Positions 1,225 through 53,857 of a DNA stretch of 64,000 bases are shown here, piece by piece. The translations under genes and the position numbers were made by a program. This DNA is from Aquisphaera giovannonii (GTDB taxonomy: Bacteria > Planctomycetota > Planctomycetia > Isosphaerales > Isosphaeraceae). The notes under the pieces were generated by a model. The model was not told the origin of the DNA, made no database searches, and saw only the letters and a list, made by a program, of their open reading frames with translations. The stretch spans positions 5,456,001 to 5,520,000 of the forward strand of contig NZ_CP042997.1 in assembly GCF_008087625.1 (NCBI RefSeq), given 5' to 3'. Every line of letters starts with the position of its first letter. Within the stretch, counting starts at the first letter, position 1.

Positions 1225-4200
1225 TCAGCGGCCGTCGTCTCCCGGGGCCGGGATGCGGACGACGATCACGGTCCCGGATCCGGGGCCGGACTCGACGAGG
1301 AGCTCGCCGCCGACCAGGTCCGCCCGCTCACGCATGCCGGCGAGGCCGAGCCGCCCGCCCTGCGTCGCGTCCGGGTCGAACCCCGCGCCGTCGTCCTCGA
1401 CGACCGCGGTCACGTGGCCGGCGGTGCGGGTCACCACGACGCTGACCCGGCCGGCCCCGGCGTGCTTGGTCGCGTTCGTGAGGGCCTCCTGGACGATGCG
1501 GTAGACGGTCGTCTCGATCTCCGAGGGCAGCCGGCCCGCGTCGAGGCCGGCCGCCTGGTAGGCGGCGGGGACGCCGGACCGGGCCGACCAGTCGGACACG
1601 AGCTGCCCGAGCGCGGCGTCCAGGCCGATGTCGTCCAGGGACGTGGGCCGGAGCCGCATGGCCAGGGCGTGCACCTCCCGCCCCACCTCGTCGACGAGGC
1701 TCCGGGCGTCGGCCAGCTTCCCGCCCAGCGAGGGCGGGAGGGCCTCCGCGGTCTCGACCGCCTTCAGGGAGAGCATGAGGCCGGCGACGAGCTGGCCGAT
1801 CGAGTCGTGCAGCTCGCGGGAGATGCGGAGTCGCTCCTCCTCCTGGGCGGCCGCGAGCCGGCGGGTCAGCTCGGCGCGCTGGGCCATGGCCTCGGCGAGG
1901 GCGGCCGTCCGCCTCGCCACCTGGTCCTCCAGCTCCTCGTTGGCCCGCCGGAGGGCCGCCTGGGCCTCCTTCAGGTCGGTCACGTCCACGCACACGCCGG
2001 CCAGCCGGAGGTCCCCGTCGGCCCCCTCGCCGGAGGCGTCGCCCTGGTCCCGCAGCCACCGGACGCCGCCGTCCGGGCGGACCACGCGGAATTCGACGCC
2101 CAGCGGCCGGCCCCGCCGTGCCGCCTCCTCGAACGCCTCGCGGGCGGGCCCGCGGTCGCCCGGGTCCATGCGGGCCAGGAAGTCCCCGAGCGGCCGGACG
2201 GTCTCCACGCGGTCCAGTCCGAGCAGGGCGTTGAGGTTCGCGTCGCGGCGGTGGGCGTCGCGCGCGACGTCCCAGGTCCACATCCCCATCCGCGACGCCG
2301 CGAGGGCCATCCGCAGCCGCGATTCGCCCCGGCGGAGCGCCTCCCGGACGCGGCGGCGCTCGAAGAAGTCTGCGGCCTCGCGGGCGAGGACGTCGAGCAG
2401 CCGCAGCTCCCTGGGGCCGGGGGTGTGCACCTCGCGCCAGTGCGTGGAGATCATCCCGACCAGTTGCCCGTCGCGGGTCGTCAGCGGCGTCGACTGCATG
2501 GCCACGATCCCGCTGAGCGCGAAATGCCGCAGGCTCTCCGCGCCCAAGGGGCTGCCGGCGGCGTGGGCGTCCGGCACGATCGCCCGCTCGCCGTGCCGGA
2601 GGGCCAACGCGCAGCTCGTGCCGGACCGGATCGAGACGGTGCGCCAGAACTCGGCCGAGTCGGGATGGAAGCCCCTCCAGCCGAGCAGGTGCAGCTCGCC
2701 GCTGCCGGCGTCGAACAGCTGGATGCTGCCGAAATCCGCGCGCAGGATCGCCATCGCGGCGTCGAGGATCTGCTCGTGCAGGTCCCCGCCCGCCTCGTCC
2801 TCGATCAGCAGGCTGCTGACCCGCTGGAGCGTCTTCGCGTCCTCCAGCTCGCGGGCGAGCTGCCGGCGGCTCTCGCGCAGGGCCGCCTGGGCCTCGGCGC
2901 GCTCGGCCGCGGCCCAGGTCCGCTCGGCGACCTCGCGCACCAGCTCGACCTCGGCGGCGGTCCACTCGCGGGGCCTCGCGCCATGCACGGCGAAGACCGC
3001 GACGTCCCGGCCCTGCTTGACGAGCGGCACGGTGACGGTCGAGCGGATCTCCGCCGCCAGCCAGGCCGCCCGCTGGGGGGCGCCGATCGTCGGGTCGGTC
3101 GAGGCGTCGGAGACCACGAGCGGCTCGCCCCGCCGCAGCCGCTCTCCGATGCCGCGGTCGGAGAAGGCGGAGTAGGACGCGCGCCCGGGGAACGGCGAGA
3201 CCCGGCTCGCGTACTGGCCCCGGACGAGGCACTCCCGCGCATCGCCCTCCCCCTCGATCTCGGCGTACAGGGCCCGGTTCACGCCGAGGTGCTCGCCCAG
3301 CAGGCGGGACGCGGTCGTCAGGACCTCCGCCGGGTCGGCCAGCGGCCTCATCGCGTCGCTGAGCCGCAGGAGGAAGGCGTCCCGCTCCTCGCTCGCGCGG
3401 AGGACCTCCTCGGCCCGCCTGCGATCCGTCACGTCACGGGCGGCGCCGAACCACTCGACGATCTCGCCGCGGTCGTCCAGGATGGGGACCGCCCGGGAGT
3501 GCGTCCAGCCGACCGTCCCGTCCGCCCGGATGACGCGGTGCTCCAGGTCGAAGGGGCGCTTCCCCTCGATCGAATCCCGGATGGCCGCGAGGATGTGCGG
3601 CCGGTCCTCGGGGAGGATGTAGTCGTCGAGCCAGGACCGGCTCGGGCTCTCGGCGCGCGCCAGGAACCCGCCGCCGTCCTGCTCCCGCAGCTCGGTCCAG
3701 TCCGGGCTCATCCGGTACACCAGGTCCGACGAGGCCCTCACGAACGCCCGGTAGCGACTCTCGCTGTCCCGCAGCCTCTCCTCGGCCCGCCGCCGGTGGG
3801 CGTCCTGGCGGTCGCGTTCCCGCTCGGCCCGCACCTTGGCCGTGGTCTCGATGACCGTCAGGAAGACGCCGCCGATCCGGCCGTCGTCGTCGCGCGCGGG
3901 GCTATAGGTGAGCGTGAAGTAGGCATCCTCCAGGACACCCTGGCGGGCGAGCGGGATGAGCCGGTCCTCGAGGAGGACGGACTCGCCGCGGGCGAGCACC
4001 CGCTCGTAGATCGGGCCGTTGATGTGCCAGGCCTCGGGCCAGCACTCCCGGGTCGGCTGGCCCAGCGCGGCCGGATGCTTCCCGGCCGCGATCCGCGCGT
4101 AGCCGTCGTTGTAGATCTGGATCAGGTCCGGGCCCCAGAGGACGATCGAGGGCATCGGGTGGGCCAGCAGCAGGTCCACGATCGTCCGCAGGCTGCGCGG

Positions 4201-4323
4201 CCAGCCGGCCGGGGGCCCCAGGGGCGTCGCGGACCAGTCGAACGCGCGTACCCGCGCGGCCATCTCGCCGTCCCCCGCGGGGGGATGCGACGCCTCGTTC
4301 GCCTCGGTGTCGGGCGGTTCCAT
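1225..4323 (-). CDS. PAS/GAF multi-sensor histidine kinase (HisKA_3/NarX type)
   Basis: A 1032-residue kinase. In order: an N-terminal PAS-like domain (about 45-165), a second PAS (about 190-303), a GAF (about 315-475), a second GAF (about 500-665), a third PAS (about 675-790), a coiled coil, the dimerisation domain with ISRELHDSIGQ (phospho-acceptor His839), and an ATPase domain with QEALTNATKH (Asn950), DDGAGFD (977-983) and GLAGMRERADLVGG. This is the NarL/DesK-type kinase class, whose partner is normally a LuxR-type response regulator; none is encoded in the window, so it is an orphan here. No transmembrane segment is visible, so the protein is probably cytoplasmic and senses a diffusible ligand or redox signal. 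The ATG is preceded by GAGGTGA. Signal unknown. Confidence 0.93.
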   Translation of the reverse strand: MEPPDTEANEASHPPAGDGEMAARVRAFDWSATPLGPPAGWPRSLRTIVDLLLAHPMPSIVLWGPDLIQIYNDGYARIAAGKHPAALGQPTRECWPEAWHINGPIYERVLARGESVLLEDRLIPLARQGVLEDAYFTLTYSPARDDDGRIGGVFLTVIETTAKVRAERERDRQDAHRRRAEERLRDSESRYRAFVRASSDLVYRMSPDWTELREQDGGGFLARAESPSRSWLDDYILPEDRPHILAAIRDSIEGKRPFDLEHRVIRADGTVGWTHSRAVPILDDRGEIVEWFGAARDVTDRRRAEEVLRASEERDAFLLRLSDAMRPLADPAEVLTTASRLLGEHLGVNRALYAEIEGEGDARECLVRGQYASRVSPFPGRASYSAFSDRGIGERLRRGEPLVVSDASTDPTIGAPQRAAWLAAEIRSTVTVPLVKQGRDVAVFAVHGARPREWTAAEVELVREVAERTWAAAERAEAQAALRESRRQLARELEDAKTLQRVSSLLIEDEAGGDLHEQILDAAMAILRADFGSIQLFDAGSGELHLLGWRGFHPDSAEFWRTVSIRSGTSCALALRHGERAIVPDAHAAGSPLGAESLRHFALSGIVAMQSTPLTTRDGQLVGMISTHWREVHTPGPRELRLLDVLAREAADFFERRRVREALRRGESRLRMALAASRMGMWTWDVARDAHRRDANLNALLGLDRVETVRPLGDFLARMDPGDRGPAREAFEEAARRGRPLGVEFRVVRPDGGVRWLRDQGDASGEGADGDLRLAGVCVDVTDLKEAQAALRRANEELEDQVARRTAALAEAMAQRAELTRRLAAAQEEERLRISRELHDSIGQLVAGLMLSLKAVETAEALPPSLGGKLADARSLVDEVGREVHALAMRLRPTSLDDIGLDAALGQLVSDWSARSGVPAAYQAAGLDAGRLPSEIETTVYRIVQEALTNATKHAGAGRVSVVVTRTAGHVTAVVEDDGAGFDPDATQGGRLGLAGMRERADLVGGELLVESGPGSGTVIVVRIPAPGDDGR

Positions 4324-4453
4324 GGGCCGTCACCTCGCCCGGCCCGGCCCTCCGCCCGCGGGCGGGCGAGCAGATTCCGGTCCACGCCGGTGCATAGACG
4401 GAGTGTAACAGCCGGTGCCTCGGCGCGGATACGGGTCTCGACGGGGCCCCGCG

Positions 4454-5560
4454 TCACTGGGCCGCGGAGACCGAGCCCATCGGGCTGCCGCGGATGGTCA
4501 TGCCCTCGGGGAGGGGCCGGCCGGCGACGCTGAAGCCGCGGTCGGTGAGCTCGGCGCGGAGGGCGCGGAAGAGCGGGAAGCTGTCGGGGTAGACCCAGAA
4601 GGTGACCACCGAGCGGCCCGCCGTGAGGCGGTTGACCGCCTGGGCGTAGGCGGAGATCGGGTTCCGCGTCGCCTCGTAGGCCTCGCCCCGGGACTCGTGC
4701 TCGGGCACGACCTCCCAGCCCTTCAGGTCGAAGCGGATGCTCTGCCGCTCGATCAGCTCGTCGATGCCCGTCCCGGCCCGGCCCAGCACGTAGGCCAGCG
4801 AGAACGAGCCGACCGGCCCCACCTGCGACTGGATCAGGCCCGTCCGGTCGGCCATCCGGATCCGGAGCTGGGCGTCGGCCTTGGCCAGGTCCAGCAGCCG
4901 CTCCAGGTTGATGAAGCTGATCCGGTTGCGGCGGAGCTCGAAGTGGAACTCGTCGCCGGCCGCCGGCCTCGCCACCGGGCTCTTGGTCAGGATCGAGGTC
5001 GCCTTCGGGCGCGGCAGGGCCCGCAGGGCGGCGACCTCTTTCCTCAGCTTGTCCACGTCCGCGCGGAGGAAGCCGCCGCGGGCGGCGACCTGGGTGATCC
5101 TCGTGGACGGGTCCTTGATCCGCGAGGCCAGCTTGCGCGCGTTCGCCGCGTCGAGCGCCGCCTGGTTCGCCGCGGCCTGGAGCCGGCCCGCGGCGTCCTT
5201 CGCGCGGGCCTCGGCCCGGGCGCGGTCGCGGCTCGCGGCGTCGAGGGCCGCCGTGGCGCGGGCCACCGCGGCGATGTCCAGCGGCGGCGCCGGGGCCGGG
5301 GCCGGGGCCGGCGCCGGGGGCGCGGCCGCCGGGGGCTGGGGCGGGGCGTCGGACGGCGGCGGGGCCTCCTTCGCGGGCGGCACGACGACCACTTGCGCGG
5401 ACGGCTCGGGCCGGTCCGGGGGCGCCTCGACGGCCGCCGGCGGGTGGAATCGCTCCCGGAGCCGGGCGTGGGCGGTCAGGCCCGCGACGATCGCGAGCAG
5501 GCTGGCCACGGTCGCCAGGGGGCGGAGGCGGTCGTATCGCGATGGGACCATCGACGCCAT
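4454..5560 (-). CDS. Membrane-anchored coiled-coil protein, second gene of a pair
   Basis: 368 residues of unknown function. A transmembrane helix lies at about 17-32 (LATVASLLAIVAGL), followed by a Pro/Ala-rich linker with alternating Ala-Pro near 85-95, a long Ala-rich coiled coil (about 95-190) and a folded C-terminal domain of about 170 residues. The C-terminal stretch FWVYPDSFPLFRALRAEL is similar to part of the upstream 922-residue protein (YFVFLVRPDGIRPYYEVRA), so the two share a domain. It starts 35 bases after the upstream gene ends and is surely co-transcribed with it. The topology (anchor, stalk, C-terminal domain outside) resembles envelope-spanning stalk proteins, but that is inference. 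Confidence 0.8.
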   Translation of the reverse strand: MASMVPSRYDRLRPLATVASLLAIVAGLTAHARLRERFHPPAAVEAPPDRPEPSAQVVVVPPAKEAPPPSDAPPQPPAAAPPAPAPAPAPAPPLDIAAVARATAALDAASRDRARAEARAKDAAGRLQAAANQAALDAANARKLASRIKDPSTRITQVAARGGFLRADVDKLRKEVAALRALPRPKATSILTKSPVARPAAGDEFHFELRRNRISFINLERLLDLAKADAQLRIRMADRTGLIQSQVGPVGSFSLAYVLGRAGTGIDELIERQSIRFDLKGWEVVPEHESRGEAYEATRNPISAYAQAVNRLTAGRSVVTFWVYPDSFPLFRALRAELTDRGFSVAGRPLPEGMTIRGSPMGSVSAAQ

Positions 5561-5595: not shown

Positions 5596-8364
5596 TCACC
5601 AGTCCTGCGGTTCCATCAGCCGCGGGCCCTGCTGGTCGCCGGTCACCTGGAGGGACATCGGCCAGCCCAGGCCGGAGAACAGGATCTGCTTGCGGGCCGC
5701 CCAGAAGGTGTCGCTGCCGTTCCCCTCGACGAGGAACTTGACCCGGGGCTTGGGGCGGATCAGCGGGTCCGCGGCCGCCCGCTGGTTGGCGACGGCCAGG
5801 AGCTGCCGCACCAGCAGGCTGTCCTTCCTGCGGTCCTTGATCGAGCCGGCGGTGATCCGATAGCCGCCGGGGTGGATCACCAGCCCGTCCGGCTCGCAGG
5901 CCACCGTGATCTCGAACGGCACCTCGATCGGCTTCGACGGCCCTTCCGGGATCCGCCCCTTCGCCGAGGGCATGAAGTCGGGCTCGCCGTCGGCCTTGCC
6001 CGGGCTGCCCGACGACGACCCCGGCGAGCCCTGGCCAGCGTCCGACGAGCCGAAGACGAGCCCGCCCATCGAGGGCGTCGCGCCGCCCGACGAGGAGGGC
6101 GGGGGGCCCGAGCCCAGGCTCGACCCCAGCGACACCCCCAGTCCCGAGGGCGGGGCCGACGGGCCGGCGGTCCCGGTCGAGCCCTTCACCCCGCCGGACG
6201 AGCCGGCGGGGGCGGAGGCCGCCGACGTCCCGGCCGGGCCCTCGGCCGCGCCGCCCCCCGCGTCCGGCTTGCCGACCCTCGCCGGGCTCCCGCCGGACGC
6301 GGCCGCCGGGGCGGTCGGCGACGACGGCGGCTTCCCGGATCCCGCCTGCCATTCGAGCCCGCCGGGCTCGTCGCCCGAGGGCCCGGAGCCCGGCTTCGCA
6401 GGGTCTCCGATCGTCTCGCCCCGGGGCCGCCCGCGGCCCCCGGCCGCCGGGCTCCCGCCCTCCGCCCCGCCGTCCGGGCCGTCCAGCACGAGCGGCTCCG
6501 GCGCCGGTATTGACGAGGTGCCGGCGGATGCCGAGGAGCTTGAAGGTGGTGCGACCCCCGACGGCGAGCCCGATCCCGATGCGCCAGCCCGGGACCCGCC
6601 GAGGCCCCCCCCGCCGGCCGTGCCACCCCCGCCGCCGGGCGTCGCGGGCGAGTCGTCTGCGGCTTCCAGGTCCGGGACCACCTTCCAGCCCTTCTGGCGG
6701 AGGTCGTCCTCGGAGCCGGCCCCCGTCCCGCCGCCCAGGCGCGGGTCGATCCGGCCGGTCGACTTCGAGCCCCGCGAGGCGGCGGTCCAGTCCTCGACGG
6801 CCTGGCCGAGCTTCTTCCGCGCGCCGTCGCCAGCACCGGCGATCCCCGCGCCGGGGGGATTGGTGCCCTTGATCCCGCGGGGGCCGGTGAAGCCGCCCCC
6901 GCCCGCCCCCGCCTGATCGTCGGGCGGGCCCCCGCCGATCCCTCCGCCCCGGCGGTCCTTCGCGACGGTGCCGTCGGGCTCGAACATGCCGCCACGCGGG
7001 GCGGCGATCGGCGAGCGAGGCGTGCGCCTCGGCCCCGCGACGGGCCCGCCGCCGAGCCCGTCCGGACCGTCGGTCGCCCCGGTGCCGGCCGAGGGCCGCG
7101 AGCCCCTCGCGCTCGGCCGGGGCCAGACGAAGGCCTCCGGCGAGTCGTCGTCGGCGCCTCCGGCCCCGCCCTTCGCCTCGCCGGTGCCCCCGCGGGCGGC
7201 CAGGCCTCCCGGGCCGGGGCCCTCGCCGTCGCGGCCGCCGCCGGGCCAGTTCAGGCCGACGTCGCCGCCGTCCGGGCGGGCCGAGTCCGCGCCGCGGTCG
7301 GTTCGCGCCAGGCCGTTGCCGGCCGGGCCCGCCCCCTTGCGGCCCTTCGCGTCCTTGCCGTCGGGGGCGGCCTCGAGCGGCTCCTCGAGCGGGATCGTGC
7401 CGTCCCAGGTGCGGACGTCATCGAAATCCGGCACGTCGATCTTCATGTCCTGCTCGACGAGCTCGTAGCCGAAGGCCATCCCGAGCGGCTCCAGCCGGGC
7501 GCGGACCTCGTAGTAGGGGCGGATGCCGTCGGGCCGGACCAGGAAGACGAAGTACGGCACCACTGGCGCGCCGTCGGGCGAATCCGAGCCCTGGACCTTC
7601 AGCAGCTCGCGGGCGATGGCCAGGATCACCGGGCTGGACCGGGGGTTGATCATCGAGGCGAGGTCGAGCATCGAGAAGACCGGGCCGTTCGGCCGCATGG
7701 CCACGGTGCCGTTGACGCATTCCAGGACGATCGGCCGCCGCCAGCTCCCGTTCGGCCCCTTGTACGGGAGCACGGCGTACGAGCCCTCATGCTGCCGGCC
7801 CTTCACGACCGCCGCCTTCAGGGCGTCGCGCTCCCGGGCCAGGACGTCCCGCTCGAACGCGAGGGCGTCCACCTGCTGGTCGATCTTCCTGACCCGGTCG
7901 GCGATCGAGGCCACCTGCTGGCTGACGAGCAGCTCCCGGCGCTTCCAGCGGCCCGATTCGGCGAGGGCGTTCGCGATGGCCCGCTCGCTGGCGTCGGCCT
8001 TCGCGTCGGCCTCCTTCGCCGCGGCCATCTCCCGGGCGGTGGCGTCCGCGACGGCCGCGAGCTTCGCCTTCGTCGGATCCTCCGGCGGGGCGGCCGGGGC
8101 CGGCGGCGGCTGGATCGCGGGGACGTCCTCCGGCTTCGGCCTCGCCGCGACGGCCGGCGGCGGCGTGCCCGGCGCCGGCGGCGAGGCGGCCGGCGCGGGC
8201 TTCGCGGCCTCGGCCACCCGCTCGGCCTCGATTCGCGCCTTCTCCCGGGCGTCCCTGGCCGCATCGCGGTGGATCGTCACCACGAGGTTGAGCGCCCCGG
8301 CCAGGCTCGCCAGGAACAGCGCCACCAGCGCCCTCTCGGCCCAGACTGACCCCGGCTGCCGCAT
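5596..8364 (-). CDS. Large membrane-anchored protein with a Gly/Pro/Ser-rich central region
   Basis: 922 residues; the ATG at 8364 is chosen because the hydrophobic segment ALVALFLASLAGALNL then lies near residues 11-26; a GTG 48 bases upstream would only add charged sequence. After the anchor come a Lys/Glu/Ala-rich helix, a Pro-rich linker and a coiled coil. Then follows a folded domain (about 205-340) shared with the downstream gene, and then about 400 residues rich in Gly, Pro, Ser and Asp with no regular repeat. A C-terminal domain of about 110 residues follows, containing IHPGGYRITAGSIKDRRKDS. It is the first gene of a two-gene operon. I recognise no family. The low-complexity middle is probably disordered. 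Confidence 0.78.
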   Translation of the reverse strand: MRQPGSVWAERALVALFLASLAGALNLVVTIHRDAARDAREKARIEAERVAEAAKPAPAASPPAPGTPPPAVAARPKPEDVPAIQPPPAPAAPPEDPTKAKLAAVADATAREMAAAKEADAKADASERAIANALAESGRWKRRELLVSQQVASIADRVRKIDQQVDALAFERDVLARERDALKAAVVKGRQHEGSYAVLPYKGPNGSWRRPIVLECVNGTVAMRPNGPVFSMLDLASMINPRSSPVILAIARELLKVQGSDSPDGAPVVPYFVFLVRPDGIRPYYEVRARLEPLGMAFGYELVEQDMKIDVPDFDDVRTWDGTIPLEEPLEAAPDGKDAKGRKGAGPAGNGLARTDRGADSARPDGGDVGLNWPGGGRDGEGPGPGGLAARGGTGEAKGGAGGADDDSPEAFVWPRPSARGSRPSAGTGATDGPDGLGGGPVAGPRRTPRSPIAAPRGGMFEPDGTVAKDRRGGGIGGGPPDDQAGAGGGGFTGPRGIKGTNPPGAGIAGAGDGARKKLGQAVEDWTAASRGSKSTGRIDPRLGGGTGAGSEDDLRQKGWKVVPDLEAADDSPATPGGGGGTAGGGGLGGSRAGASGSGSPSGVAPPSSSSASAGTSSIPAPEPLVLDGPDGGAEGGSPAAGGRGRPRGETIGDPAKPGSGPSGDEPGGLEWQAGSGKPPSSPTAPAAASGGSPARVGKPDAGGGAAEGPAGTSAASAPAGSSGGVKGSTGTAGPSAPPSGLGVSLGSSLGSGPPPSSSGGATPSMGGLVFGSSDAGQGSPGSSSGSPGKADGEPDFMPSAKGRIPEGPSKPIEVPFEITVACEPDGLVIHPGGYRITAGSIKDRRKDSLLVRQLLAVANQRAAADPLIRPKPRVKFLVEGNGSDTFWAARKQILFSGLGWPMSLQVTGDQQGPRLMEPQDW

Positions 8365-8688
8365 CAACCCGGCCTCCGCCCCTGACCCTGCCCGCCCAGC
8401 CCCCCACACCACGAGGATGATGGAGTGGCCCCGGGCGCAGCGCCGCGCGTCATGCGCGGCGTGTCACCAACATCGGTCGTGAGGGATGGGGGTCTTGAAT
8501 CGGAAGGGTGAGCCGTCTGGGCATTGAGGCGAGGTCGGTACCCTACGACAGGGGGAGCCCGTCAACTCGAGAGGTTGCGGAAGGGCGCTCGCGCCGGTTC
8601 AAGAATGCCTCCGACCTTTGTACTCCTAACATTTCGCGAATGTGGTGCATGATTCGAGCGATGGAGTTCCCCTCGCTGGAGTTGAAAT

Positions 8689-9271
8689 TTGCTCTCCGAT
8701 CAGGGCATCGAGTCGGAATTGAGCCATGCGTATCTGCACGCGGTGGCAAGCCGGGCAGGCTTCGCGTGCGAGGTCTCGGGCCGGCATCTCAATAACGCGG
8801 CCGTAGACGCGGTCGTCCGCGAGGACGGACGCCGGCTCGATCCGAGTTCGGTCCTCACCTCGTTCGACCACCACGTGCAGGCCAAGGCCACCGCGATTCG
8901 GCCCATCGAGCATGCCGGCTCTTATTCCCGCAGGCTGCCGCTCAACCAGTACAATAGGCATGAGGAGCATGCGGGTGTATTCGCCTCGCGTGCTGGTCGT
9001 CCTCTATCTGCCCATTTCTCCGTCCCGATGGCTTGAGCATGTCGAGGGCTCGCTGGTGATGCGGGGATCTGCGTATTGGGTGAGCTTGAGGGGGGCGCCG
9101 GCCAGCGACAATCGATCGTCTCGGACCTTTCGCATACCCAGGCATCAGGTACTCTCCGTCGAGGGCCTCACGGGGCTGATGACGCGAGCGTCGCGGAGGG
9201 AGGAGATCCTCTATGAGTCGCGGATCGCAGGCGCTGGACCTGGCAAATCGCGTGAGGACGCCGGCCATTGA
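8689..9271 (+). pseudogene. DUF4365-like gene broken by a frameshift
   Basis: Frame 1 from a TTG at 8689 (GGAG seven bases upstream) reads ESELSHAYLHAVASRAGFAC, then VDAVVREDGRRLD and HVQAKAT, the pattern of DUF4365, a nuclease-fold family associated with mobile and defence loci. At RLPLNQYNR, near 8956-8960, the family continuation jumps to frame 2: MRSMRVYSPRVLVVLYLPIS, then GSAYWVSLRGAPASDN, ending at 9271. One extra base, or two missing, near the GGCATGAGGAGCATG stretch explains it. It overlaps the next gene by 59 bases. Either a real pseudogene or a sequencing error. The family call rests on remembered family motifs, so moderate confidence. Confidence 0.5.
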
Positions 9272-9542
9272 GAGGTATGCCGAGGGATTGGGATGGACGC
9301 GAGTCCCGGCGATCGGCGGATCGATCGCCGTCTATGAGCGGCCGGATTCTCCCCTGCATCAGTTGATCGTCCCGCTCGATGAGAGCTACGACGATTACGG
9401 CGAGACGGTCCTCGAAGCGGCCAGGAAACTCGCGGCATTCGAGGGGAAGCCTCTCGCGGAGGTGCTGGCTCTCCTCGTCAAGCCCTCCGAAGGGAGACGG
9501 AAGCCCGCGACGCGTGTCGTGCCGGCGGTCCCGAGTCCGTGA
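9213..9542 (+). CDS. Small conserved hypothetical protein
   Basis: 109 residues beginning MSRGSQALDLANRV, with a strong ribosome binding site (GGAGGGAGGAG) just before the ATG. The central part contains YERPDSPLHQLIVPLDES and ends with a basic, Pro-rich tail. There are no transmembrane segments and no catalytic motif that I can name. It overlaps the 3' end of the broken DUF4365 gene, which suggests the two were one translationally coupled unit. Function unknown; it could be a partner of the DUF4365 protein. Confidence 0.65.
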   Translation: MSRGSQALDLANRVRTPAIERYAEGLGWTRVPAIGGSIAVYERPDSPLHQLIVPLDESYDDYGETVLEAARKLAAFEGKPLAEVLALLVKPSEGRRKPATRVVPAVPSP

Positions 9543-9686
9543 CCGGAACAGGCGGATCGACCTGGGGCGTCCGGATGGGCGCGCTTCGGCCTCGCAGTCC
9601 GGCTCATCATCGCGGACGGTCCTCGCTCCGCCCCGTTGCCGGGCCCGCCTACGTCCTATGCGGGCCGATCGGCCTGGGATGAGGCT

Positions 9687-11093
9687 TCAGAACCAGGACA
9701 GGATCTCTCCATCCTCGTCGAGCTGAACCTCGACCCCGTGTTCTTCGTCCCAGGACGCGTCGAAGTGGATCACGGTGTGGACCGGCTGCTCGAAGTGACG
9801 GGTCAGCACGATCGTCCCGCCCTCGACGGCCGCCAGGATCTTCCCCGCGGAGAACTCGCCGTCATCCCCCTCGAACGCCGCACGGTCGTCGGCGGGGAGG
9901 TGGCCCGCAGCCACGCGGCGGAAGAAATCGACGACGTGCCGCTCGAGGCCCGTGCGGAGGTCGGGCCAGCGCGTCTGGAGTCGGCCGCATTCGTCGCACA
10001 GCGCGTCGAGGGTCGCGGCCACTCGCGACGGGGCGGGCCGCTTCTCGAGGACGAGGTGGAAGCCCAATCGGAGGGCGGCCCAGTCGCAGGCCATCCCGGC
10101 CGGATCGTCCCACCAGATGGAGGGCGTGTCGCGGTCGTAGGAGACCTCGTACGGCCCGATCGCGGCGAGGCGGGCATTCACGCGTTCGTCGCGGCTCGCC
10201 TTCGGCCGGAGCACCTCGGGGTGGGCGTCGCGGAACCGCTCGACCTCGCGGAGCCACCCCTGGACCTCGCGAGTCAGGTCCTCCGGAGAGTTGTCGGCGA
10301 GGCTCCGGTACTCGTCCAGGACCTTCCGGAGCACCTTGTTGAGCCGGGGCGACTCCGGCGGCTCCTTCTGCGCCAGGGAGTTCAGCTTGCCCATTTGCTC
10401 GCGGAGGCCATCGATCGCATTTCGCTGGTAGCTCAGGTGATTCAGACGCTTGATCCGTCGCGCACGGTCCTCGCGGGCGGCCTCGGGGTCGAAGTCGGGG
10501 TGCTTGCGAGGGTCGCCGTATCGGGCGACGTCGCGAGCCAGGTCGTCGCGGTGGGCCGAGACGTACGCGTCGAGCAGGCGGCGGATGTCCTCGCGCGTCT
10601 CGACCCCCTCGGCCGGCCGGGGCTGCGGGATCGCGGACGGGAGCCCGTCGGGGACGTCGCCCAGGATGTGGGCGAGCCCGACGGCGAGGCTCTCGCGCAC
10701 TCCCTTGATCGCCTCCGCGGCCTCCCCGGGGGCCAGGTTGCCGGACCGCACCATCTCCTGGGCCAGGGATAAGGGCGAGCGCTCGACGGGCGACGATCGC
10801 AGGGCCCGGACGACTCCGACCGCCCCGATCGCCTCGAGCGCCCGCAGCGTGAGCGAGACCTGCAGGCCCACGTGCCCGAAGACGAAGGCCCTCCGCCAGA
10901 GCTGCGGGTCGATGCCTCGGTCGTTCTCGTCCAGGAACCGGGCCGCGATCACCGCGTTCGCGCCGGCCTGGGACAGCTGCTCGTCGAGCATCCGGAACGT
11001 CTCGCCCGGGCTCGAGGCGCCCAGGGCCGTGCCTGAGTAGGACCACCAGTCGTGGTAATCGTCCGCGTCCCGGAAGTAGGCACCTTCGCTCAT
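9687..11093 (-). CDS. Hypothetical soluble protein, 468 residues
   Basis: A single long frame with the typical high third-position GC of the region. It begins MSEGAYFRDADDYHDWWSYS and has a helical N-terminal half, a Lys/Arg/Glu-rich predicted coiled region near 260-300, and a C-terminal half that contains SIWWDDPAGMACDWA and HVVDFFRR and ends in an acidic tail. No signal peptide, membrane helix or known active-site motif was seen. It is convergent with the small gene ending at 9542 and divergent from rnpB. I do not recognise the family. Confidence 0.7.
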   Translation of the reverse strand: MSEGAYFRDADDYHDWWSYSGTALGASSPGETFRMLDEQLSQAGANAVIAARFLDENDRGIDPQLWRRAFVFGHVGLQVSLTLRALEAIGAVGVVRALRSSPVERSPLSLAQEMVRSGNLAPGEAAEAIKGVRESLAVGLAHILGDVPDGLPSAIPQPRPAEGVETREDIRRLLDAYVSAHRDDLARDVARYGDPRKHPDFDPEAAREDRARRIKRLNHLSYQRNAIDGLREQMGKLNSLAQKEPPESPRLNKVLRKVLDEYRSLADNSPEDLTREVQGWLREVERFRDAHPEVLRPKASRDERVNARLAAIGPYEVSYDRDTPSIWWDDPAGMACDWAALRLGFHLVLEKRPAPSRVAATLDALCDECGRLQTRWPDLRTGLERHVVDFFRRVAAGHLPADDRAAFEGDDGEFSAGKILAAVEGGTIVLTRHFEQPVHTVIHFDASWDEEHGVEVQLDEDGEILSWF

Positions 11094-11373
11094 GAGACTC
11101 CACCCGCGGCCGCGCCGAATCCCGGGGCCCTCGCGAATTTCGGGGGCGGCCGACCGTCACCGGTGCGTCATACCGTCCACGCGGTCGCGGGGCACCGACG
11201 AAGTCGAACACGATCGGCCACGCCGAATGCCATGGAATTGAGGTCCGCAACCCGGCAGCCGGGCCGCCGTTCGAACCTTTCCCCATCCGCCGCGTCTTTG
11301 AGATTAGGTGACTCGTTTCTCGTCGGCAACCTCGGTTGTCGGCGGGGCGGGCTCGCCTTATGATGGTCGTTGT

Positions 11374-11949
11374 GCTCGTGGCGGGCACGATGATCGCCGG
11401 GGCGCCGGGGTCCTGTCGTGGCGGGAGGGCGAGCGATCGCCCGATCGCGAGGGAGGGCCCGGGGTCGTGCCCCGGAGGAAAGTCCGGACTCCGCAGGGTG
11501 CGGTGGTGGGTAACGCCCACCGTCGGGGAGGCGCCATCGGCGCCGAGCCGATAGGGAAAGTGCCACAGAGAATAGACCGCCGGGGACTCGTCGCGGCCGG
11601 CTCGTCCGGCCCGTGAGGGGGCCTCGGTAAGGGTGAAACGGTGAGGTAAGAGCTCACCAGCAGGGCGGGTGACCGCCCTGGCTTGGCAAACCCCACCGGG
11701 AGCAAGACCAAATAGGGGAGCAACGCGAAAGGGCGAATACGATGCGGCAACCCCGGGCAACCGGGACTGCCACGGCGGCTTCGCCGTTGCGTGCGGATCG
11801 GCCCGGTCCGTTATCGACTCCCGGGTAGGTCGCTCGAGGCGTCGGGAGACCGGCGTCCCAGAGAAATGATCATCCCCGGCGGATCCGGAGCGGTCCAACC
11901 GCGACGGCGCCGTCGGGACAGAATCCGGCTTACGAACCCCGCCACGAGC
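11374..11949 (+). ncRNA. rnpB: RNase P RNA (type A)
   Basis: Conserved RNase P RNA elements are present in order: GAGGAAAGTCCGGACTCC at about 11475, AGGGTGAAACGGTGAGGTAA near 11630, AAGAGCTCACCAGC, GCAAACCCCACCGGGAGCAA followed by GACCAAATAGGGG near 11685-11717, GGGTAGGTCGCTCGAGG near 11822, and the 3' ACAGAATCCGGCTTAC near 11918. The ends are set by a perfect 12-bp pairing between 11374-11385 and 11938-11949, which I read as helix P1. About 576 nt is long for a type-A RNA; the extra length lies mainly between P1 and the GGAAAGTCC core and in the P12 region. It is the catalytic RNA that matures tRNA 5' ends. An intrinsic terminator follows at once. Confidence 0.93.
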
Positions 11950-11957
11950 CCTCGACC

Positions 11958-11996
11958 GAAGGCGGACGCCCTCACCGGCGTCCGCCTTCTTTCATT
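11958..11996 (+). terminator. Intrinsic terminator of rnpB
   Basis: A perfect 12-bp stem (11959-11970 with 11977-11988), a six-base loop CTCACC and a T-rich tail TCTTTCATTT. It starts about ten bases after the predicted rnpB 3' end. Confidence 0.88.
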
Positions 11997-12044
11997 TCCT
12001 CCTCACGATTCGACGCTCCCTTCGGCCCGTCCATGGCCGGCCGG

Positions 12045-42220: not shown

Positions 42221-45200
42221 TCAGGGCTCGTCGAGGGTGAGGGTCCCGAGGTCGACCTCCTTCCCGGCCGGCTCGCGGCCCTCCGGCGGGACCTCGAAGT
42301 CGAACTGGCACGAGACGGGGACGCCCCGAGGGCCGCGCACGTCCCCGATGCCCGAGAAGGAGGCGTGAAGCCGATAGCGTCCCGGCGGCAGGTCGTCGAT
42401 GCGGAACCGACCGTCCGGGCCGGCCGTCGCGCGGAAGTTGGGGGCGAGGCGTTCCTCCCCGCCGATCAGGGGGGCCCCCCGGATCCAGGCGTAGTCCCAG
42501 GGGGGCTCGCGTCGGATGCCCTCGGCCAGCCGCAGCCGCCCCACGACGGCCCGGCCGGCCCCGCCGAGGTCCAGCCGCGTCGTCCGGCCGGCCGGGAAGT
42601 CCGCCTCGACGTGGACGCCGGAGGAGGCCCCCTCGGCCCCGAGGGCGACCGGCGGCTCGACATGCCGGCCGATCGTCCAGCGCCCCGGGAACACGCGCTC
42701 GAAGAGGAACCGGCCGTCGGGGCCGGTCGTGGCCTCGGACTGCCGCATGGCGAGGAGCATCCGGTTGCCGTCGCGGAGGGGTGGGATCTCGACGGAGAGC
42801 CTCGCGTTCGCGACGGGCTTCGACCCCACGCGGAACGTCCCCTCCACGCGTGACCACGGCTCGAGGCGGATGAGTCGGACGCGGTCCCATCCCTGCTCTT
42901 TCGCCGGATCGACCCAGGCCTGGCCCGTGGGGTGGACGATCGCGAGTCGGAAGTTCTCTTTCGGCAGCGGCACGCGGAAGGTCCCGGCGGGGTCGGCGAT
43001 CACGGTCCGGAAGTAGGCCGTTGACGGGTCCTCGAAGTCTCCATTTTTGAACCAGATCCCCGCAGCCCCCTTCAGGGTCGCGACGCGTGCCCCGGCCGCC
43101 GGCCGATTATCCGGCGTTATGACGCGGCCGATGATGCCATGCGCCTGCTTCAGCGCGAAATCCAGCGAGACGCTCCCCTCGTCGCTGCGGACCTCGCGAG
43201 ACTCCGCAACCTCGTAGCCGTCGGCCTCAACTCGAACGAGGTGGCGGATGTCGTCGCCCCTCCGGCCCGGCCGGTATTCGAAGTGGCCGGCGGTCCCCGT
43301 CGAGGCCTGCCACTCGGTCCAGTATATCCTCTTGCTGGCATCGAGGTAACTCCCGGGGACGACTCGGAACGCGCCGATCGGCCGACGGCTGTCCGCATCG
43401 ATCACCCGCCCGGTGACGATCAAAGGTGGCGGGAGTCGCAGTTCCTGGAGTTCGTCTCGGGGCGCGACCTTGAGCTTCGTCCGCTGCATCTCCCCTGGCG
43501 GGGCGATCTCGAAGGTGATCTCGTCGCGCGGGGCCCCGCCCCATTCCCAGCGGCCCTCGGCGTCGGTGTGCCTGATCACGCCGCCGAAGTCCTGGGGTTC
43601 AATCCGGTTGCGCACCCAAATCCGGTCGATGACGGCGTTCGAGACCGGCTTGCCCGTGTGATCGACCACCCGAACCCGGAGCGGCCGGGCCGGCTGCAGG
43701 GTCAGATCGACCGGGGCATAAGGTCCTGGCCCGACGGGCACGGTCCTGGAGCCCATGGCCCGACCCGGCGCCGTGGCCATGAGCTCCGGCGTACCCGGGG
43801 GGCAGCCTTCCGCGCGGAAAGTCCCATCCGGCCCGGTCGTAACTTCCTTCATGCTCACGCCTGCCGAGCCAACCACGCGGACGCGGGCACCGGCGATCGG
43901 CTTGCCCGCCTCATCCCGGACCGTGCCCGCGAGAACCTGGCCTCGACGGAGGGTCAGCCTGTTCGCGGGCCCGAGGTCTCCGCCCACTGGTATATCGGGT
44001 GATATTTGCACATTACCTTCTATTAGGAACCCCGAATGCAGCACGCCCGTCGATACATGCTCAGCCGACTCAGGAACGCGGTCGTACCGCCAGCGCCCCG
44101 CGCGGTCGGTCGTCGCGAAGGCCCGCGCGCTGTGGTGGCCCGGGCTCCTGGGCTGGATACGAGACGGGATGTCCAGCAACACCCGGGCGCCCTCGACCGG
44201 CTTGCCGTCCGGGTCCGCGACGATACCATTGACAACCTGGGCCTTCTCGAGTTGGATCCTCAGGGGGTTCGGCATCTCCTGGCCGGGGAGCCTGCTCAAC
44301 CAGTCGGCGTTGTACAAACCGTATCCGGGGATCGAGACGGTCACGTCCAGGTCGTTGCCGTTCGCCGGGAGCCGCACAGCCAGCCGCCCCTCCACGTCCG
44401 CGTCCACGACCGCCGCATCCCCGTCCCGCCTCGCGAACGAGCCCCGGCGGACATCGTCGGCGTTCAGGACGGGATAGGTCCGGAGGCTGACGGGCGCGTT
44501 GGGGATCGCCCGTCCGTCCGGCCCGACGACCTGGATCTCCACGTCGCGCGTCTCCCCGTCGGGTCGTGTCGCGAGCGCTTCCCGGTCCGGGCGAGGAGCA
44601 CGCCCGACGGCCGCGATCCCGGCGGCGGAGAGGGCGGCCGCGATCAGCAGGAAGGCGGCGAGGACGGCCGATCGCGTGAAGACCTGCCTGCGCAGGAACG
44701 CAGCGGCGAGCCTCGCCGCGGCCGAGGGCGAGACGGCCCGGGCTACGCTCTCGACGGCGAGGTCTCGCGCCATCGCCGCCGCGGTCGCGGCCCGCAGCGA
44801 GGGGGAGACGGCGGCCTCGGCCGTCGATGCGGGCCATCCTGAGACGGTGGCGGCGACCGCTGCCGGGAGCAGGCCGCGGCGGGCCAGCCGGCCGCGGAGC
44901 TTCGCTCGGGCGCGGTCGAGCCGGCCGCGGAGGGCGCCGGCCGTCCAGCGGAGGCGACGGGCAGCGTCCTCCTGGGGCAGCCCTTCCAGGTCGCAGAGGA
45001 TGACGGCCTGGCGATACTTCTCGGGGAGCCGGCCGATCTCCTCGTCGAGGATCTCCCACAGCTCGACGCGCTCGGCGGGCCGCTCCGGCGGCAGGGCGGC
45101 CGCCTCCAGCCTCGCCGCGAGCGGCTCCCGCGCCCGCCGACGGAGCGCGTCGGTCCTGGCCCGCGAGGCGACCCTCCGGGCCACGCCGTGCAGCCAGGGG

Positions 45201-45496
45201 CCGAGCGAGCAGGCCCCTTCGAGCGCCCGGCGGCGGCGGATGAGCACCAGGAACGTCGCCTGGAAGGCGTCGTCCGCGTCGGCCTCGTTCAACGGCCCGA
45301 GGATCCGCCGGCAGACGCCCAGGACCATCGGCCCGTGCCGCTCGACGATCGCGGCGAACGCCGCCTCCTGCCCCTCCTCCGCGAACCGTCGGACCAGCTC
45401 CGCCTCCGGGAGCCCGGCGACCGTGCCGTCGCGGAAGACGCGATCCACCCCGCGGACCAGGCTCCTCGAGCCGTCATCCTCGATCGTTGCGCCCAT
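42221..45496 (-). CDS. Sigma-70 family (ECF) factor fused to a membrane anchor and carboxypeptidase-regulatory-like domains
   Basis: 1091 residues from the ATG at 45496. Region 2 spans about 45-115 (VERHGPMVLGVCRRILG, DADDAFQATFLVLIRR, WLHGVARRVASRARTDALRR). Region 4 spans about 147-200 (LPEKYRQAVILCDLEGLPQE and DAARRLRWTAGALRGRLDRA). A linker leads to one transmembrane helix (about 275-297, AVLAAFLLIAAALSAAGIAA). The remaining 790 residues form repeated beta-sandwich domains: VQVVGPDGRAIPNAPVSLR-like starts, PDGKPVEGARVLLDIPS, DEAGKPIAGARVRVVGS and TPDNRPAAGARVATL. Such sigma fusions are known in planctomycetes. The likely mechanism is outside sensing with release or activation of the sigma part, which is inference. 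Confidence 0.85.
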   Translation of the reverse strand: MGATIEDDGSRSLVRGVDRVFRDGTVAGLPEAELVRRFAEEGQEAAFAAIVERHGPMVLGVCRRILGPLNEADADDAFQATFLVLIRRRRALEGACSLGPWLHGVARRVASRARTDALRRRAREPLAARLEAAALPPERPAERVELWEILDEEIGRLPEKYRQAVILCDLEGLPQEDAARRLRWTAGALRGRLDRARAKLRGRLARRGLLPAAVAATVSGWPASTAEAAVSPSLRAATAAAMARDLAVESVARAVSPSAAARLAAAFLRRQVFTRSAVLAAFLLIAAALSAAGIAAVGRAPRPDREALATRPDGETRDVEIQVVGPDGRAIPNAPVSLRTYPVLNADDVRRGSFARRDGDAAVVDADVEGRLAVRLPANGNDLDVTVSIPGYGLYNADWLSRLPGQEMPNPLRIQLEKAQVVNGIVADPDGKPVEGARVLLDIPSRIQPRSPGHHSARAFATTDRAGRWRYDRVPESAEHVSTGVLHSGFLIEGNVQISPDIPVGGDLGPANRLTLRRGQVLAGTVRDEAGKPIAGARVRVVGSAGVSMKEVTTGPDGTFRAEGCPPGTPELMATAPGRAMGSRTVPVGPGPYAPVDLTLQPARPLRVRVVDHTGKPVSNAVIDRIWVRNRIEPQDFGGVIRHTDAEGRWEWGGAPRDEITFEIAPPGEMQRTKLKVAPRDELQELRLPPPLIVTGRVIDADSRRPIGAFRVVPGSYLDASKRIYWTEWQASTGTAGHFEYRPGRRGDDIRHLVRVEADGYEVAESREVRSDEGSVSLDFALKQAHGIIGRVITPDNRPAAGARVATLKGAAGIWFKNGDFEDPSTAYFRTVIADPAGTFRVPLPKENFRLAIVHPTGQAWVDPAKEQGWDRVRLIRLEPWSRVEGTFRVGSKPVANARLSVEIPPLRDGNRMLLAMRQSEATTGPDGRFLFERVFPGRWTIGRHVEPPVALGAEGASSGVHVEADFPAGRTTRLDLGGAGRAVVGRLRLAEGIRREPPWDYAWIRGAPLIGGEERLAPNFRATAGPDGRFRIDDLPPGRYRLHASFSGIGDVRGPRGVPVSCQFDFEVPPEGREPAGKEVDLGTLTLDEP

Positions 45497-45985
45497 CGCC
45501 TCATCCTCATCAGGCCCGCGGATCCGGCCGCCTTGCATCCCTTCTTTGCCGCGACGAGCCGACGCCGCACGGTTTTCCCCGGAATCGGCGGAAATTGGCG
45601 GCGTGGCGCGGGCGGGTGGCGACGGCGGGGCGAGCCTCCTCGGGTTCACGCGCTCTTTCCGGGATGAGGCCTGTTGATCCGGATCAGGATGCGGGTGCCG
45701 GGCTGTCCGCGGGACACGGCCGCGTCGATCCGCCGGGCCATGGCTTCGGCATGGTCGATCGAAACGGAGCGAGCGGACGGGCGAATCATCCGACCCATCT
45801 TACCGCGGCCGTGCCACCATTCCTCTCCCTCGACCGCTTGCGGGAGAGGGGCGGGGTGAGGGGGGAACGGGGCTCGGATCGTGGGGGCCGGACGATCCGG
45901 AGCGAGATGCCTCGAAGACGAGAAGGGACTCCGGGAGGCCTGGGTCGGAAGACCCTCACCCTAGCCCTCTCCCGCCGAGCGGGAG
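45497..45985. repeat. Intergenic region ending in repeat family A, copy 1 (45822-45985)
   Basis: The first 325 bases hold no recognisable gene. From 45822 there is a ~165-bp element. Its left end has CTCTCCC and GCGGGAGAGGGGCGGGGTGA, its middle GATCCGGAGCGAGATG, and its right end AAGACCCTCACCCTAGCCCT followed by CTCCCGCCGAGCGGGAG. The IS110 copy 2 is inserted exactly in its right terminal hairpin. Confidence 0.75.
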
Positions 45986-46002: not shown

Positions 46003-48490
<2,488 letters not shown>

Positions 48491-52785: not shown

Positions 52786-53857
52786 GGCTCAAGATGGATT
52801 CCGGGGTGGTGCCAGGAGCTGGCTGATCAGGGCCCCCAATAGCCTCTTCCCGCGGGCTCGGACGTTGTGAACGAACTCGAAGAAGCCCAGGTACAAGGGG
52901 AGGCACTCCTGGGAGATCCCCCGGTGGGGTCGGAGCCACGAGCGCAGCAGCGACCAGAACCCCTCGAGCGTGTTGACGTGGACCTCGCAGAATCCGTCCG
53001 CGTCGTCGTCCCGGGCATACTCGCCCGCCGCGTGGCAGACCGTCTCGTGCGCGTAGCCCCACTCCTCCAGGCGACTGTAGATGTCATACTCATCGGTGTA
53101 GACCAGGCTCCCCGCGGCGATCGTCCTCCTGATCAGCGGGCCGATCGTCGCCTGCTTGACGTCCGCCAGCATCCGGATCACGACCTCGCCGCCGCGCTGC
53201 AGCATCCCGAAGATCGGCGGCTTCTCCTTCTCCAAGGTCCCCCGGCCTCGCTCCCCCTTCAGGCGCCGGCGGCGGGGGGGCCGGCCTTTTTTTTGACGGC
53301 CTCGGGATGGCCCTTATGTCCCGCGACCACATAGACTTCGTCGCATTCGACCTCGCCCTCCAGCGCGACCGGGGGACGACGGGCGATGATCCCCTCGCGG
53401 AGCTGGCGGATCATCGCCCGGGCATCATCCTTGTTGACCTCCAGCTCCTGGGCGATCTGCAACCCGGAGAGGTTCAGGCCCATGAGATACAGGCACGCGA
53501 TCCAGGTCCGCAACGGCTGGTGGTGGCCGGCGAAGATGGTGTCGGTGAGGTCGTCGAAGCGCCGGCCGCAGCCGCGGCATTGGTAGCGCTGGCGGTGAGG
53601 CTCGGTGTCATCCCGGCCGTCCTTGATGACCGAGGCGGACGAGCAATGAGGGCAGGCCACCCCATCGGGCCAGCGCATGTCCCGGATCGTCGTGTAGCAC
53701 TTGGCGTCGTCGAAGAGGTCCTGGATGTTCACCATCGATCGGCACCCGGCTGCCGGAAACGGACGGGAGTCGGGCCGACGCGAGGCCCGACCAGGTGGGG
53801 CGATTGTAGCAACTTTGGTCCCCCCCGGGGCCACCACCCCGGAATCCATCTTGAGCC
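52786..53857 (-). mobile_element. IS1595-family insertion sequence
   Basis: 1072 bp with perfect 26-bp terminal inverted repeats (52786-52811 and 53832-53857) beginning GGCTCAAGATGGATTCC. They are flanked by an exact 8-bp target duplication ACTTGAAT (52778-52785 and 53858-53865). Ends and duplication are intact, so the insertion is recent. Confidence 0.95.
52789..53735 (-). CDS. IS1595-family transposase, two frames joined by a -1 shift
   Basis: The first part starts at ATG 53735 (MVNIQDLFDDAKCYTTIRDM) with a zinc ribbon CPHCSSASV / YQCRGCGRRF, helices, and GEVECDEVYVVAGHKG, the first DDE Asp. It stops at 53259. The second frame continues from KKKGRP through EKEKPPIFGMLQRGGEV, VYTDEYDIYSRLEEWGY (second Asp), HAAGEYARDDDADGFCEVHV, NTLEGFWSLLRSWLRPHRGI and ends at 52789. 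The frames meet at eight As (Ts at 53287-53294). Read as codons this is AAA AAA AAG, a classical A_AAA_AAG slippery site. Programmed frameshifting, slippage, or a lost A are the options. Confidence 0.88.

Follow-up and report, generated by a model that had tools for sequence, protein, structure and literature searches.

IutY of Pseudomonas putida is a sigma/anti-sigma hybrid reported to be cut by Prc and then by RseP, the freed sigma part being active (PMC5411451). Published accounts of planctomycetes describe extracytoplasmic function (ECF) sigma factors with unusually large C-terminal extensions and possible regulatory or localisation roles (PMC4598750, PMC8103513, PMC8567305); mention is made of ECFs linked to WD40 repeats, and detergent-soluble fractions of Tuwongella immobilis contained several ECFs (PMC8567305). 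How ECFs without a linked anti-sigma factor are controlled is a question raised in this literature (PMC8103513). Here we analyse a gene on the minus strand of a 64,000-nucleotide stretch of Aquisphaera giovannonii DNA (NZ_CP042997.1, positions 5,456,001 to 5,520,000; "the window" means this whole stretch, and positions below are counted within it). Its 1091-residue product runs in a single chain from a sigma factor through a linker and one predicted membrane helix to a large outer domain, the arm. The protein is one of about 50 of this kind in its genome, which goes beyond the preliminary description made from the window sequence.

The analysis shows the order of domains in the protein, a conserved sigma-linker-helix module, an arm that is shared and exchanged with other proteins, and a linker which, among the proteins tested, is limited to sigma factors followed by a transmembrane helix. 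Our reading, to which we give a probability of roughly 0.55, is that it is a one-chain receptor sigma factor in which the arm would sense, the membrane and the linker would restrain the sigma part, and proteolysis would release it; sensing, inhibition by the linker and release are the parts of this model that we infer. The features of the gene are the following.

42221..45496, minus strand: whole gene from the ATG, 1091 residues, in the order sigma region 2, sigma region 4, linker, transmembrane helix, outer domain (open reading frame, Pfam, full-length relatives L002 and L166).
45497..45649, minus strand: possible N-terminal extension with a GTG start, probably untranslated (the relatives begin at the ATG site).
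45128..45409, minus strand: sigma region 2, residues 30-123 (Pfam; AlphaFold2 model compared with 4lup).
45269..45280, minus strand: acidic DADD motif, residues 73-76, at the site of the core-binding DAED motif (sequence; role of DAED in PMC8103513).
44873..45076, minus strand: sigma region 4 with its helix-turn-helix, residues 141-208 (Pfam; AlphaFold2 model compared with 2h27).
44669..44872, minus strand: conserved linker on the cytoplasmic side, residues 209-276, a candidate for an anti-sigma element within the chain (conservation, profile; predicted helices 232-251 and 259-297).
44606..44668, minus strand: single transmembrane helix, residues 277-297 (hydropathy; helix 259-297 in the module model).
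44552..44605, minus strand: low-confidence, poorly conserved tether, residues 298-315, possibly the region of site-1 cleavage (model confidence, identity).
42224..44551, minus strand: outer domain, residues 316-1091, a string of prealbumin/immunoglobulin (Ig)-like sandwiches, CarboxypepD_reg (Pfam, all-beta model, collinear M56-fused and lone relatives).

The frame opens with an ATG at 45496 and stops at 42221; a GTG start at 45649 is possible, and the relatives align well from the ATG. That the open reading frame (ORF) might be an artefact was rejected on the strength of full-length relatives and purifying selection. A same-genus genome (G001) holds a full-length relative with 66% identity, whose arm is identical to that of the Aquisphaera insulae protein (L166), and comparison with L166 gives a ratio of non-synonymous to synonymous substitution rates (dN/dS) of 0.44 overall, 0.35 in region 2, 0.25 in region 4 and 0.29 in the linker. 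By segment, identity to L166 amounts to 84% (region 4), 78% (region 2), 71% (linker), 64% (arm), 44% (tether) and 33% (helix), values for short segments being noisy.

The preliminary description had credited the protein with complete sigma regions 2 and 4, a single helix at about 275-297 and a large carboxypeptidase-regulatory-like outer domain, and all three are borne out. The two regions that mark an ECF (group 4) sigma factor are both present: Pfam matches Sigma70_r2 over positions 1-68 of 71 (36.2 bits, cutoff 24) and Sigma70_r4_2 over 2-54 of 54 (45.7 bits, cutoff 25.7), and TIGR02937 reaches 77.3 bits (cutoff 42.9). The chain then extends for ~880 residues past region 4. Its only hydrophobic peak, with a Kyte-Doolittle maximum of 2.43, lies at residues 277-297; every 19-residue stretch above 1.3 begins at residues 270-283, and 794 residues lie beyond the peak. 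CarboxypepD_reg is found in six stretches (E 1.7e-47) of the ~775-residue arm, and neither FecR nor Peptidase_M56 was matched in the protein at E ≤ 1. The acidic DADD stands at the site of DAED, a motif whose described role is core binding (PMC8103513); binding of core RNA polymerase and transcription are predicted activities of the protein.

Structure prediction gives a similar picture. An AlphaFold2 model of the module (residues 1-330, 77 sequences) has a mean predicted local distance difference test score (pLDDT) of 82.5 and a predicted TM-score (pTM) of 0.72. Within it, region 2 resembles sigmaE region 2 on -10 DNA (4lup: Z 14.2 over 91 residues, root-mean-square deviation 1.7) and region 4 resembles sigmaE region 4 (2h27: Z 10.4 over 69 residues, deviation 1.7); helical bundles may often give Z values as high as these, but Pfam agrees with the sigma assignment. 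The fold comparison is silent on the linker because residues 28-216 fill the match list. Both models predict linker and membrane segment as one long helix, which spans 259-297 in that of the module and 259-291 in that of the full-length protein. The full-length model (mean pLDDT 79, pTM 0.57) consists of beta structure throughout residues 316-1089, and its confidence drops below pLDDT 50 at residues 289-314. Foldseek with the full-length model finds for the most part proteins in which Ig- or prealbumin-like domains follow one another, such as pilins, Contactin, and complement and macroglobulin proteins, at TM-scores over the query of only 0.06-0.12, so these hits inform on the kind of fold and say nothing on function.

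The same build recurs throughout the genome (10.5 Mb, three contigs). A profile search, with 150 of 197 candidates scored, found at least 141 Sigma70_r2 matches, all of which were read; 54 of them sit in ORFs with at least 350 residues after the start of region 2. In 51 of these 54 long ORFs a hydrophobic window of at least 1.4 lies 180-260 residues past the region 2 start, and in 45 it reaches 1.6, as against 1 of the 87 shorter sigma ORFs. Of 80 loci taken from the genomes of other planctomycetes, 75 have the peak at residues 247-285; the highest peak is inside the linker in four, and the frame is broken in one. The arms differ: among the 54 they include CarboxypepD_reg (12), DUF1559 (4), PD40 (4), AhpC-TSA (3) and WD40 (2). 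A helix at a fixed distance combined with differing arms identifies sigma 2, sigma 4, linker and helix as the conserved unit, with the arm as its variable part. For the comparisons below, the sigma-transmembrane (sigma-TM) set comprises 50 of the 54, four of other build being left out. Of these, L044, L080 and L081 show no clear helix, and the three ORFs that match DUF6596 are probably the same ones; the fourth is L089, in frame with a pilin-like protein.

Two further genes of this genome deserve mention. In L089 (C1:1376301-1378016; locus positions 3415-5130, minus strand) an ECF sigma factor shares its frame with a complete DUF1559 pseudopilin which has a prepilin leader, RPRG/FTLIELLVV. The arrangement is also found in same-genus G001 (L296, 81% identity), and the other matches listed, from at most 11 candidates scored per genome, cover the pilin part only. 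An internal ATG right before the leader is conserved, so L089 may consist of two genes that share a frame; in the case of a genuine fusion, the sigma part could be released by prepilin peptidase. L062 (C1:4850459-4851130) is a sigma-linker gene of the same family broken by a TAG and apparently a pseudogene.

The arm also occurs apart from sigma factors. We searched a profile built from four full-length proteins (A2) in 45 genomes of the family, with at most 17 candidates scored per genome. Besides sigma proteins, some of the matches listed cover only residues ~292-1091. These include at least 17 arm-only proteins, and 14 of the 17, all except L276-L278, were candidates for a scan for M56 (BlaR1-type) peptidase, which was matched in nine of the ten N-termini scanned; the tenth, L289, gave no match. 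A BlaI-type repressor gene lies upstream in 10 of 13 M56 loci, the scan having covered all except L281, L285 and L287. L276-L278 consist of the arm alone, in proteins of ~800 residues whose start resembles a signal peptide by eye. The closest seven relatives (L275-L281) align over 771-780 of the 781 arm residues with 34-38% identity, and a merely generic carboxypeptidase-like similarity was rejected for that reason; more distant relatives align over 636-729 residues with 27-33% identity. In the same genome as the window, the M56 protein L094 carries a more distant related arm (28% identity). This genome has 18 BlaR1-type M56 places (e.g., C1:6944419), several in very long ORFs, an expansion which parallels that of the sigma receptors.

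In BlaR1/MecR1-type receptors the outer sensor follows the last membrane helix. The arm is placed outside the cytoplasm because its relatives follow M56 receptors and apparent signal peptides; on the same grounds, the idea that the helix is merely the hydrophobic core of a cytoplasmic domain was rejected. We built a tree of the outer domain from the window protein and 44 loci picked by hand from the hits (45 rows, 40 of them different: 28 sigma, 13 M56 and 4 alone). It has seven label changes, at least four of the changes for sigma are forced by well-supported branches, and the sigma group is united in 0 of 200 bootstrap trees; with rows chosen by hand, the tree shows exchange and not its rate. 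Taken together, these comparisons suggest that the arm is an extracytoplasmic, exchangeable receptor module, for which the M56 and lone forms provide independent support.

The linker behaves differently from the arm. It has ~66 residues in the window protein and 49-72 over 77 modules, in which L234 is kept in 90%, T238 in 87% and L263 in 95%; position 271 is M in 79% and Q in the window protein. The underlying alignment (A3) omits four of the 80 loci, L190, L196 and L200 with their strongest peak in the linker and L214 with its broken frame. In the same rows a proline at residue 303 (44588-44590), just past the helix, is kept in 94%; it may result from the way a proline-rich tether aligns, or else be a trait of the cleavage region. 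The linker profile (A8) has 43 rows, 42 from other genomes, being the first 45 of A3 minus L182 and L194. Compared with Pfam, the window row matched no family and one of the 43 rows had a single weak match; among PDB sequences none was related (best E 0.61). In the genome of the window the profile gave at least 34 matches (74 of 165 candidates scored), 33 in sigma-TM ORFs and the remaining one in a sigma gene with a stop; the 17 M56 places on the chromosome had no match as near as 5 kb.

Because this genome scoring was incomplete, the linker was retested directly on all 141 sigma ORFs and on 22 arm-bearing ORFs. At E ≤ 1e-4 the profile matched 39 of the 50 sigma-TM ORFs and four of five arm-bearing sigma proteins of other genomes, as against none of 91 other sigma factors, none of 13 M56 fusions and none of the 4 arms that stand alone. 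Therefore, the linker goes with the tethered sigma factor and not with the arm, and it is absent from the untethered sigma factors tested. Such a distribution is what one would expect of a part acting on a tethered sigma factor. Among the matches listed, it is present in two of 79 genomes across the phylum, that of the window included, and in 48 of 118 across the class (at most 49 candidates scored per genome); a single genome accounts for at least 43 matches.

We then turn to the surroundings of the gene. Neighbouring ORFs, their frames chosen by codon-position composition, were scanned with Pfam, and neither an anti-sigma nor a protease domain was matched in them. Genome-wide, the two anti-sigma families searched were zf-HC2 and FecR. 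The former has at least 11 matches in 10 ORFs, eight above the curated cut-off (150 of 241 candidates scored), and the latter a single match at C1:3764936, away from the gene. Within the scope of these searches, the earlier statement that no separate anti-sigma gene is nearby holds. Moreover, zf-HC2 lies within 1 kb of 9 of 91 other sigma factors versus 0 of 50 in the sigma-TM set (Fisher p 0.027). M50 (site-2 protease) genes are present in the genome, the best match being split over one 686-residue ORF. Directly upstream lies an IS110 transposase (46003-47400); downstream, the ORFs scanned have no Pfam match and are followed by a PEP-CTERM protein. Pieces of an IS1595-type transposase are found at 52792-53849. 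Gene order differs from that in Aquisphaera insulae, where the flanks of its copy match window positions 8264-12002.

From these elements, the following mechanism can be proposed. Sigma regions 2 and 4 would lie in the cytoplasm, followed by the linker and one membrane helix of N-in/C-out orientation; beyond the helix, a flexible tether would lead to an extracytoplasmic sandwich rod, which would sense a ligand or the state of the envelope. At rest, the membrane anchor, and probably also the linker folded on the sigma domains, would block productive binding of RNA polymerase. A signal on the rod would lead to a first cut in the tether, the poorly conserved segment of low model confidence after the helix; a second cut would occur in the membrane by a site-2 protease, and the freed N-terminal sigma part would direct transcription as in IutY. 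Release is proposed because a membrane-held sigma factor would be useless unless released or moved.

The preliminary description had placed sensor, anti-sigma function and sigma factor in one tethered chain, and its parts fare unequally. Tethering with the arm outside is very likely, given the family-wide position of the helix and the arm relatives behind M56 peptidases and apparent signal peptides. A sensor role of the arm is likely, and gains indirect support from the sharing of the arm with BlaR1-type receptors. As for the anti-sigma function, the conserved linker is its physical candidate and the best one for a built-in anti-sigma element; that it inhibits the sigma part, which we infer from its distribution, is a suggestion we make with some reserve. 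Liberation of the sigma part by proteolysis, argued by analogy, seems to us evenly balanced. A wider proposal is more tentative still: Planctomycetia might possess modular receptors whose arms are set either on a sigma-linker-helix cassette (about 50 here) or on a BlaR1-type peptidase, the linker being an undescribed cis-acting anti-sigma domain that would make a separate gene unnecessary.

Several observations weigh against our reading. The charge bias across the helix is weak in the 54 long ORFs (mean net charge +1.67 before it and +0.87 after it; in the expected direction in 29, opposite in 14), and arginines flank the helix of the window protein on both sides. The zf-HC2 contrast fades at 5 kb (10 of 91 versus 1 of 50, p 0.097), and there is no M50 gene in the window's part of the genome. 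As for the linker, 11 of the 50 sigma-TM ORFs lack a profile match at E ≤ 1e-4, against L167 it is no better conserved than the helix (both 52%), it resembles no known anti-sigma factor in the Pfam and PDB sequence comparisons, and its packing on the sigma domains is hypothetical. Finally, the truncations quoted for IutY suggest that it lacks a linker of this sort, and the outer part of IutY belongs to the cell-surface-signalling type, unlike that of the window protein (PMC5411451).

The sigma part could also stay tethered and uncut and act from the membrane, with a change in the conformation or oligomeric state of the arm as its switch. The one-component regulators CadC and ToxR act while membrane-bound, no protease domain was matched in the scanned neighbours, and a linker and membrane segment predicted as a single long helix would be suited to pass on twist or dimerisation. 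We nevertheless hold this to be unlikely, since a sigma factor has to travel with RNA polymerase to promoters, and IutY, the sole characterised protein of this plan met here, is cut (PMC5411451). Control might also be exerted in trans, the anchor serving only for localisation; the decision would then fall to a partner such as a kinase, an unlinked anti-sigma factor or an M56 receptor whose arm is similar. The numerous M56 places of the genome, one of them with a related arm, would fit this, as would the known ECFs without a linked regulator (PMC8103513), but of the proteins tested only those of the sigma-TM kind have the linker, an argument for control inside the chain, and the zf-HC2 and FecR matches sit elsewhere, which makes control in trans improbable.

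The protein could also be a bifunctional precursor, cut constitutively into a soluble sigma factor and a surface arm with a separate function, such as adhesion or wall binding. The arm does occur alone (L276-L278) and weakly resembles surface proteins in Foldseek; its repeated joining to two gene-regulating outputs is hard to explain without coupling, however, and we give this explanation little credit. A degenerate sigma part that has lost its ability to drive transcription is very improbable: some region 4 letters are off the family consensus, e.g., GAL where most members have GTV, yet both regions are complete and their dN/dS values against L166 are low. We thus retain the one-chain receptor sigma factor. 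If correct, a single chain would perform sensing, restraint and promoter selection, and this planctomycete would have dozens of such receptors. The arm on both sigma and BlaR1-type outputs would be a natural domain-swap experiment, its ligand findable with either, and the linker could serve as a portable sigma inhibitor, testable alone.

How does the protein compare with known systems? Given the large-extension planctomycete ECFs and IutY, the architecture is in general not new. Groups such as ECF01-Gob were reportedly defined by Jogler in 2012. The planctomycete ECFs, like the window protein, form an expanded family with long C-terminal extensions; in the passages considered, their accounts lack this linker, this arm and the sharing with M56 (PMC4598750, PMC8103513, PMC8567305). 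The detergent-soluble ECFs of Tuwongella immobilis would agree with membrane association, although the proteins concerned are unlike ours (PMC8567305). The literature passages considered mention neither an exchange of arms with M56 receptors nor the linker domain; judged by titles and opening parts of abstracts, the open-access literature searched treats neither a CarboxypepD_reg arm on a sigma factor nor an arm shared by sigma factors and M56, and we do not claim its absence from print.

ECF41, ECF42 and CorE-type factors likewise have a regulatory extension fused to sigma, in their case as soluble domains, whereas the extension of the window protein lies behind a membrane helix (PMC8103513). 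With IutY it shares a cytosolic ECF sigma factor, one transmembrane segment and an outer regulatory domain in one chain; IutY has 374 residues and a periplasmic anti-sigma domain of the cell-surface-signalling type, in contrast to an arm of ~775 residues made of sandwiches (PMC5411451). Having no FecR-type outer domain, the window protein is not filed as a member of the IutY type, although it may work alike. Finally, the BlaR1/MecR1-type M56 receptors among its relatives bear the same outer domain. Their output is the inactivation of a repressor, whereas the window protein, which has no M56, carries the sigma factor within its own chain.

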